From contig JAJFKA010000124.1 of assembly GCA_021773555.1 (NCBI GenBank), forward strand, positions 62,001 through 126,000: a stretch of 64,000 nt of DNA, in the 5' to 3' direction. The position numbers were made by a program, and so were the translations under genes. The notes below the pieces were generated by a model that was not told the DNA's origin, ran no database searches, and worked only from the letters and a program-made list of their open reading frames with translations. The stretch's first letter is position 1, and the number at the start of each line of letters is the position of its first letter. Positions 59,989-61,750 of this stretch are shown here, in pieces. The DNA comes from Gammaproteobacteria bacterium. Its GTDB lineage: Bacteria; Pseudomonadota; Gammaproteobacteria; Pseudomonadales; Azotimanducaceae.

Positions 59989-60846
59989 ATGGATACCGGA
60001 AATTTTACCGGATTTCAGGTGACACTAGAGGAACCCGGAATTGCCTGGATTGAGTTCAACGAACCGGAAAAACTCAATGGCATGAATACGCGCAAGAAAC
60101 GAGACCTGATCGAAACGCTGGTGCAGGCGCAAATGGATAATGCCGTTAGAGTCATTGTATTCACTGGACAAGGGCGTGCTTTTTGTGCAGGAGATGATCT
60201 CAAGGCCTACTCGCGTGGTGATGCCGCTGAGAACGCATTGATGGCTCCGATACCACCTGGCCACGACAATCCCATTGGCACCTATAACGGTCTGAGACAT
60301 ATTTCTCAGGCGTTGAATCTCACCATTCGCAGTCTGGACAAACTTACCATTGCCGCCGTCAATGGTATTGCGATCCAGACCGGCCTATCACTGGCGCTTT
60401 CCTGCGACTTCAAAATTGCCGCCAGCGAGGCAAAGCTTGGCAGCGCAACCCTCAGGTTTGGCTTGCTGCCTGATGAGGGAGGACAGTATCTGCTGGTCCA
60501 GCATATGGGCCTCGCCAAAACGCTGGACTTTGTCATGCGTAAAAAAATCGTTAGTGCAGATGAGGCAATGTCGCTGGGCCTGGTCAATGAAGTCGTGCCG
60601 TTGGATCAACTGCGGGCAGAAACGCTGAAGTTAGCCTCGGAACTAAGCCTCGGTCCGCAGGTTGCTATGCGACTGCTTAAACGCTCTGTTTACCAGGCGG
60701 CAGAACTGAGTTTCGAACAAGCCTGTGACGAAATAGCGTCCAAAACAGCCATTTCTGATCATCACCCGGACACCCGTGAAGGTGTATCGGCGTTCCGGGA
60801 AAAACGCACTCCGAAGTTTAACGCGTGGCTGGAGAATCAGGCATGA
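59989..60846 (+). CDS. Enoyl-CoA hydratase/isomerase family protein
   Basis: A 285-residue crotonase-fold protein. CoA-binding segments are FTGQGRAFCAGDDLKAYS and NGIAIQTGLSLALSCDFKIAA. Neither standard hydratase Glu is kept: GGGxE reads IQTGLS and the FGxPE region reads LGSATLRFG. A nearby LLPDEGG could supply an acid. It may therefore be an isomerase or thioesterase-like crotonase. It is translationally coupled to the methyltransferase by a four-base overlap. Confidence 0.8.
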   Translation: MDTGNFTGFQVTLEEPGIAWIEFNEPEKLNGMNTRKKRDLIETLVQAQMDNAVRVIVFTGQGRAFCAGDDLKAYSRGDAAENALMAPIPPGHDNPIGTYNGLRHISQALNLTIRSLDKLTIAAVNGIAIQTGLSLALSCDFKIAASEAKLGSATLRFGLLPDEGGQYLLVQHMGLAKTLDFVMRKKIVSADEAMSLGLVNEVVPLDQLRAETLKLASELSLGPQVAMRLLKRSVYQAAELSFEQACDEIASKTAISDHHPDTREGVSAFREKRTPKFNAWLENQA

Positions 60847-61469
60847 CCGGGAGTGATCTGCCGACTGACTTTTTTCGTCGAGAAGATGAATCACCGGATG
60901 AAAACTTTTATCAGACTGCAAGGTTGACGACACATATTGATGACGCCACAATCGCCAATATCACAGAATTTTATCGGCAAATGCTTGTTCCCGCCGACCG
61001 ATTGCTGGATTTGATGTCCTCCTGGATTTCTCATCTGCCACCTGAAACCGACTACGCAAGGGTTAGCGGTCTGGGCATGAATCAGGAGGAACTTGAAAAG
61101 AACCCGCGATTACACGACTTCCATGTGCACAACCTCAATGATCAACCCGTACTTCCCTTTCCGGATTCAAGTTTTGACGCCGCTATGATCATCGTGTCCA
61201 TTCAATACCTGACCCGGCCGTTCGAAGTGTTTGGCGAAATCTCCCGAATTCTCGCACCGGCTGGCAAATGTATTGTCGCCATGTCGCATCGCCTATTTCC
61301 GACGAAGGCCGTTTACGCTTTTAAGGCCCTGCCGCCGGAGGACCGGTGCAAACTGGTTGCAAGCTACATGCACCAGACAGGTGTTTTTGAGCAAGTATCA
61401 TTTTTCGATCGGTCACCCATGAACGCGGATCCTTTGTGGCTGGTAATGGGAACGAAACTAAAAAGCTGA
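60843..61469 (+). CDS. Methyltransferase-like protein with degenerate SAM motif
   Basis: A 208-residue protein. The second half has a Rossmann methyltransferase pattern: PVLPFPDSSFDAAMIIVSIQYLTRPFEVFGEISRILAPAGKCIVAMS, as in class I enzymes. The glycine-rich motif I is replaced by DRLLDLMSSWISHLP, so SAM binding may differ or be lost. It begins at ATG 60843, overlapping the crotonase stop. Similar crotonase-coupled proteins are not familiar to me. Function is unclear. Confidence 0.65.
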   Translation: MTGSDLPTDFFRREDESPDENFYQTARLTTHIDDATIANITEFYRQMLVPADRLLDLMSSWISHLPPETDYARVSGLGMNQEELEKNPRLHDFHVHNLNDQPVLPFPDSSFDAAMIIVSIQYLTRPFEVFGEISRILAPAGKCIVAMSHRLFPTKAVYAFKALPPEDRCKLVASYMHQTGVFEQVSFFDRSPMNADPLWLVMGTKLKS

Positions 61470-61477
61470 TACGGTTT

Positions 61478-61483
61478 TATAAT
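61478..61483 (+). promoter_or_regulatory. Consensus -10 hexamer before the selenoprotein gene
   Basis: TATAAT lies 42 bases before the ATG at 61526. No good -35 is seen at 16-18 bases, so an activator may be needed or the gene may also be read from the upstream operon. Confidence 0.4.
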
Positions 61484-61525
61484 TGTGGGAACCTTAGGTC
61501 TATTAACCATAAAGGGGTAGAACAA

Positions 61526-61750
61526 ATGAGAACGATAGCAATCCACTATTGCGCGCAATGAGACTATAAACCTGAGGCGGTCAGTTTGGCTGCTGAATTA
61601 AAGTCAGCATTCGGTATCGAGGCGACTTTGTTTGCAGAAGGAAAAGGAATCTTCGATGTGCTTATCGATGGGGAGAAGATCTACTCAAAGTACGATACTC
61701 ATCGTTTTCCAGACCCAGGAGAAGTTACTCGCCTGGTTAACCGCGACTAA
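61526..61750 (+). CDS. SelW-like (Rdx family) selenoprotein with in-frame TGA as selenocysteine
   Basis: A 74-residue frame starting at ATG 61526 (GGGG eight bases upstream) and ending at TAA 61748-61750, interrupted only by TGA at 61559-61561. Reading TGA as selenocysteine gives MRTIAIHYCAQU, then DYKPEAVSLAAELKSAFG, GKGIFDVLIDGEKIYSK and RFPDPGEVTRLV. These are the SelW/SelT/SelH thioredoxin-like blocks, with the redox motif CxxU where homologues have CxxC. A SECIS-like hairpin follows the TGA. The family is thought to act as a thiol redox protein. It is missed by ordinary gene calling. SelA, SelB, SelC and SelD must be elsewhere. Confidence 0.88.
61568..61587 (+). promoter_or_regulatory. 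SECIS-like hairpin after the selenocysteine TGA
   Basis: AAA (61568-61570) and CTGA (61572-61575) pair with TCAG (61581-61584) and TTT (61585-61587), with one bulged C at 61571. The apical loop is GGCGG, whose first two G residues fit the GG usually needed in bacterial SECIS loops. It begins six bases after the TGA, within the coding sequence, as bacterial SECIS elements do. Confidence 0.65.

Follow-up and report, generated by a model that had tools for sequence, protein, structure and literature searches.

SelW-like selenoproteins with a CxxU motif have long been known. In the Sargasso Sea data they were the largest family, with 48 genes carrying CxxU and a bacterial SECIS element and 7 cysteine forms (PMC1088965), and the GOS data yielded 427 SelW-like selenoproteins against 56 cysteine homologues (PMC2398784). 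Per the sections of these two papers drawn on here, SelW-like CxxU proteins are among the most abundant selenoproteins of ocean metagenomes (PMC1088965, PMC2398784). For epsilonproteobacterial SelW, the portion of PMC4607533 drawn on here describes genes missed in annotation and an apical hairpin of 5/6 bp after the TGA.

The gene described here is a well-supported new one of these, located in a 64,000-nucleotide stretch of DNA (the whole stretch analysed, hereafter the window), and it fits the findings of PMC1088965, PMC2398784, and PMC4607533 as far as the sections used here report them. Like the ocean-metagenome proteins in those sections, its product is small and carries CxxU, and its gene has a bacterial hairpin whose small loop contains G. 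The selenocysteine (Sec) form is commoner than the cysteine form there, as it is here, a likeness drawn from the published descriptions (PMC1088965, PMC2398784). Searches of open-licence literature on SelW in gammaproteobacterial metagenome-assembled genomes and on bacterial Rdx retrieved nothing specific to this lineage, which does not imply absence from print. The gene leaves knowledge of the SelW family and of Sec insertion unchanged; it illustrates cleanly how a finder that stops at TGA would miss a gene, and the most interesting aspect is the strictness of Sec retention in this lineage.

A SelW-like frame containing an in-frame TGA

The frame translates as MRTIAIHYCAQ-TGA-DYKPEAVSLAAELK...RFPDPGEVTRLVNRD-TAA, and its start and end agree with those of the relatives in the aligned loci (Table 1). 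When the TGA was read as cysteine, the product matched Pfam Rdx (PF10262; E 5.7e-17, 62.1 bits against a cut-off of 22.6) and TIGR02174 (49.7 bits against a cut-off of 34.2). Its best NCBIfam E-value, 8.2e-22, was to SelTWH_Campy (NF041051), yet the score of 77.2 bits lies below the equivalog cut-off of 88. The Rdx/SelW-type protein of 74 residues that had been proposed from the letters alone is thus found in the frame and in both family matches over their cut-offs, and the TGA does lie at the second redox position as claimed, three codons after the cysteine, where homologues (the paralogues read in the alignment) have cysteine.

Table 1. Coordinates, within the window, of the selW-like gene and its associated features
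Feature	Position	Strand	Remarks
selW-like coding sequence	61526..61750	+	74 residues; TGA as putative Sec at codon 12; TAA stop 61748-61750
Cys codon of CxxU (residue 9)	61550..61552	+	alignment column invariant
TGA codon, putative selenocysteine (residue 12)	61559..61561	+	second position of the CxxC motif (CAQU, residues 9-12)
Bacterial SECIS apical hairpin	61577..61593	+	stem 61577-61582 with 61588-61593; loop AGUUU 61583-61587; covariation
AAGGGG, ribosome-site-like	61512..61517	+	8 nt before ATG; read from sequence

The predicted product has a thioredoxin-like fold and belongs with the Rdx/SelW-like proteins. An AlphaFold model built from an input of 33 aligned sequences has a mean pLDDT of 89.8 and a pTM of 0.74, and the CAQU motif (residues 9-12) follows the first strand (residues 4-9 in the model). 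In a Foldseek search with this model, rows 1-21 were SelW-related chains of 2fa8, 2obk, 3dex, 2oka, 2p0g, and 2ojl (query TM 0.89-0.94), with thioredoxins following from rank 24 at weaker E-values, and a profile search of PDB sequences returned the same six entries as its first matches. The Pseudomonadota Cys Rdx proteins of PDB entries 2fa8, 2obk, 2oka, and 2p0g share the predicted fold (query TM 0.90-0.94); the Pseudomonadota Cys Rdx relatives read have cysteine in place of Sec, lack the gene's hairpin at the SECIS place, and fall on the other side of the tree described below.

The aligned Sec proteins are 36-73% identical to the window's. When the sequence after the TGA was compared with that of 26 Sec relatives (L062, whose contig ends inside the gene, is omitted), the third codon position was the most divergent in 25, the exception being L035. 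The dN values were 0.25-0.73; dS was computable for 13 of the 26 comparisons, with values of 1.25-3.54. In a tree, 30 Sec rows and 59 Cys rows lie on opposite sides of one branch with 100/100 support; the program warned that the columns were few, that many forks stayed open, and that the bootstrap had not settled. The Sec rows were the 28 aligned loci together with those of genomes G148 and G545, and the Cys rows were the best-scoring loci from the 58-genome, class, and phylum sets described below, with identical proteins dropped. It is possible that a Cys member of the Sec side exists outside the tree sample.

A TATAAT in front of the gene, reported in the earlier note, is indeed present at 61478-61483. 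It is absent from the list of a sigma-70 scan, whose single promoter-like match, against 0.7 expected from shuffles, lies at 61374-61401, and a promoter role for it is therefore unsupported.

A covarying hairpin after the TGA

Following the descriptions in the sections of PMC1088965 and PMC4607533 drawn on here, we took a bacterial SECIS element to be a hairpin that comes soon after the UGA and has a G in its small loop, and such a hairpin is found at 61577-61593. It has a 6-bp stem, GCGGUC-AGUUU-GGCUGC, in which the second loop base is G; counted from the UGA, the first stem base is the 16th and the first loop base the 22nd. Across the 28 aligned sequences, pairing holds in 97.6% of 168 cells, and both sides have changed in 6 of them. 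None of 500 shuffles equalled the alignment in pairing, in double-change cells, or in covariation score; 18 of 500 equalled it in the count of doubly changed pairs and 9 of 500 in pair types. Pairing drops to 56.5% or less when the partners are slid, and RNAalifold recovered five of the six pairs in this register, together with one extra loop-closing pair. The SECIS of this gene is readable from covariation alone. For the window sequence taken singly, folding was only mildly better than that of shuffles (z -1.83; 10 of 200 shuffles as good). An Rfam scan here returned no SECIS and one chance match (E 4.9), far below the gathering score.

A larger set of 106 distinct sequences gave the same rate of pairing (621 of 636 cells, 97.6%), with all six pairs in 92 sequences, one missing in 13, and two missing in 1. 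Their loops are AGTTT in 66, AGTCT in 34, GGTCT in 4, and CGTGT in one, with one further loop containing an N. The Ser codon of the loop is AGT in 100 of 100 cases and the Val codon before it GTC in 85 of 87, whereas AGT makes up 17 of 169 in the Ser pool of neighbouring codons. Synonymous resampling of the Sec sequences gave 77.2% pairing, with a maximum of 80.5% in 300; the codon pool for this extended as far as 36 bases in front of the TGA, and a few of its bases may therefore precede the start codon. Among 59 Cys relatives, chosen by a motif filter, 46.6% of cells are paired at the SECIS place and the hairpin is complete in none. A loose test accepting any hairpin of at least 5 bp was passed by 105 of the 106 Sec sequences but also by 41 of the 59 Cys sequences.

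The earlier note had placed a GG-loop hairpin after the TGA, without coordinates, which we take to be CTGA-GGCGG-TCAG at 61572-61584. That a hairpin follows the TGA holds, as the covarying stem shows. The presumed GG-loop version is poorly kept, with 67.0% of 112 cells paired and with 49 of 500 shuffles attaining its covariation score, and the hairpin in Table 1 is preferred.

Selenocysteine machinery and distribution among relatives

The source assembly comprises 5.2 Mb in 194 contigs and is 99.34% complete and 1.85% contaminated. The selA (569 bits) and selB (423 bits) genes are adjacent on contig C93, where their ORFs overlap by 4 bases. A tRNA-Sec (selC) with anticodon TCA scored 67.6 bits against a cut-off of 47 and lies on contig C50, as does selD (287 bits). 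The latter is fused to a Pyr_redox_2 oxidoreductase in an ORF of 722 residues, with the oxidoreductase in the N-terminal and SelD in the C-terminal part. This arrangement resembles the Ndh-SelD fusions mentioned in PMC2398784, in the section used here. Lower rows under the cut-offs were also listed and are presumably other GTPases, related enzymes, and ordinary tRNAs. All four genes that the earlier note had asked to be searched for were therefore found over cut-off, which rules out an absence of the machinery.

In a set of 58 related genomes that includes the window's own, 28 match, with 29 rows, of which 23 contain one TGA and 6 contain no stop (one of the latter being a second copy in G020). 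Among the 23 genomes with the TGA form, selB is over its cut-off in 21 (not in G003 or G019) and tRNA-Sec is found in 22 (not in G002), and none is without both. Since selB is over cut-off in 36 of the 58 genomes, 15 have selB without the selW-like gene.

Within the window's taxonomic family, 112 of 206 genomes match, with 115 rows, and 94 have no match. Of these rows we read 112: 110 have CxxTGA without an early stop, including the window's own and one in G929 that runs into its contig end, one is decayed, and one (L251, in G900) is cut by the contig start before the TGA site. The decayed copy (L250, G830:C12:25580-25906) contains several stops and is the sole broken one among the family copies read. 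The three further rows, in G020, G007, and G804, are stop-free second copies, each beside a Sec copy; the only one of the three read, that of G020 (L041), is a Cys form on the Cys side of the tree. TGA occupies the site in 128 of 128 CxxTGA rows read, rows which were chosen by that motif, with L250 and L251 as the two failing rows.

Beyond the family, the sampled genomes rarely have the TGA form: it is found in 2 of the 51 that match among 369 sampled from the class, and in 2 of the 83 that match among 398 sampled from the phylum, one in each case being the window's own. The cases outside the family are those of G148 and G545 (L145 and L146), Sec-form SelW genes with a different short hairpin in which a loop G can be seen by eye. 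Their loops, also read by eye, are CGUGC and CGUGU, so the AGUYU loop looks lineage-specific.

Interpretation of the TGA, genomic context, and other candidates

Taken together, the machinery genes, the residues kept after the TGA, and the covarying SECIS support the selenoprotein interpretation. We consider it very probable that 61526-61750 encodes a bacterial selenoprotein of the SelW-like (Rdx) family. Computation shows the conserved frame, the hairpin, the genes of the machinery, and the predicted fold; the insertion of Sec itself we infer. Translation would begin with the ATG at 61526; at the UGA, hairpin-bound SelB would deliver selenocysteyl-tRNA-Sec, and with Sec inserted there translation would continue to the TAA. 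The product would have a thioredoxin-like fold with the Cys-x-x-Sec pair after the first strand, and would probably act as a small thiol/selenol oxidoreductase.

Two other readings of the TGA were weighed. A pseudogene, in which mutation turned a Cys codon into TGA and left the remaining frame to decay, has a precedent in the decayed copy of G830, and yet 110 family genes have TGA at the same codon with no early stop, third-position differences dominate in nearly all comparisons, and the hairpin covaries. Random substitutions and frameshifts after the TGA would mark such decay in related strains; those 110 genes instead preserve the residues there and have no early stop, and the earlier statement that the sequence after the TGA is kept, and that the gene is not a pseudogene, agrees with this; we regard decay as highly improbable for the window's gene. 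It is just as hard to credit that the TGA is read as some other amino acid or by leaky read-through, given the complete Sec machinery in the genome, a covarying hairpin at the SECIS position, cysteine at this site in the paralogues read, and the use of TGA as an ordinary gene end in several relatives.

For the selenoprotein gene itself, a further proposal is that this gammaproteobacterial family has an obligate-Sec SelW subfamily, in which the gene is either kept with Sec or not found. Sec occurs in 110 of the 112 matching genomes (one more being decayed and one cut before the site), and no family copy read was a Cys version of the Sec subfamily. The SECIS has hardly changed, with a loop of AGUUU or AGUCU in 100 of the 106 distinct sequences, against protein identities of 36-73% to the window's protein. 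We put this forward tentatively and rate its chances at somewhat below even. If true, it would point to a reaction impossible for Cys and to tight co-evolution with the local SelB, and the subfamily could help in asking why some proteins keep Sec without Cys replacement.

Gene neighbourhoods gave no strong functional lead, the most shared neighbour clusters occurring in 8 of 34 loci (28 Sec and 6 Cys). In the window, an enoyl-CoA hydratase-like gene (ECH_1) lies at 59989-60846, upstream of selW on the same strand. Because such a gene often precedes selW, the protein might work with fatty-acid metabolism: 8 of the 34 loci have a related ORF upstream in the same orientation, and in three of them (L058, L059, and L062) it is about 10-31 nt away. 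However, the other 26 loci showed no such ORF in the sequence covered (1.5 kb upstream or less in many of them), and the window has a methyltransferase between the two genes. We think such a link unlikely, and it would add to the selenoprotein explanation rather than replace it.

Other families in the same genome were also inspected for in-frame TGA codons. None of 5 molybdopterin-oxidoreductase rows has one. Among AhpC-TSA (peroxiredoxin-family) rows, 6 of 16 contain one in-frame TGA (L121, L123, L124, L127, L129, and G000:C17:109130-109468). In the five of these that were read, the TGA is at the presumed active-site position (TGGU, UPYC in three, and UGC) and a hairpin is predicted after it, which makes several more selenoproteins in this genome probable. 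A single TGA row out of 11 with a CMD domain (AhpD-like), at G000:C186:11252-11377, is a weak match (E 1.9e-5) and possibly represents another selenoprotein.
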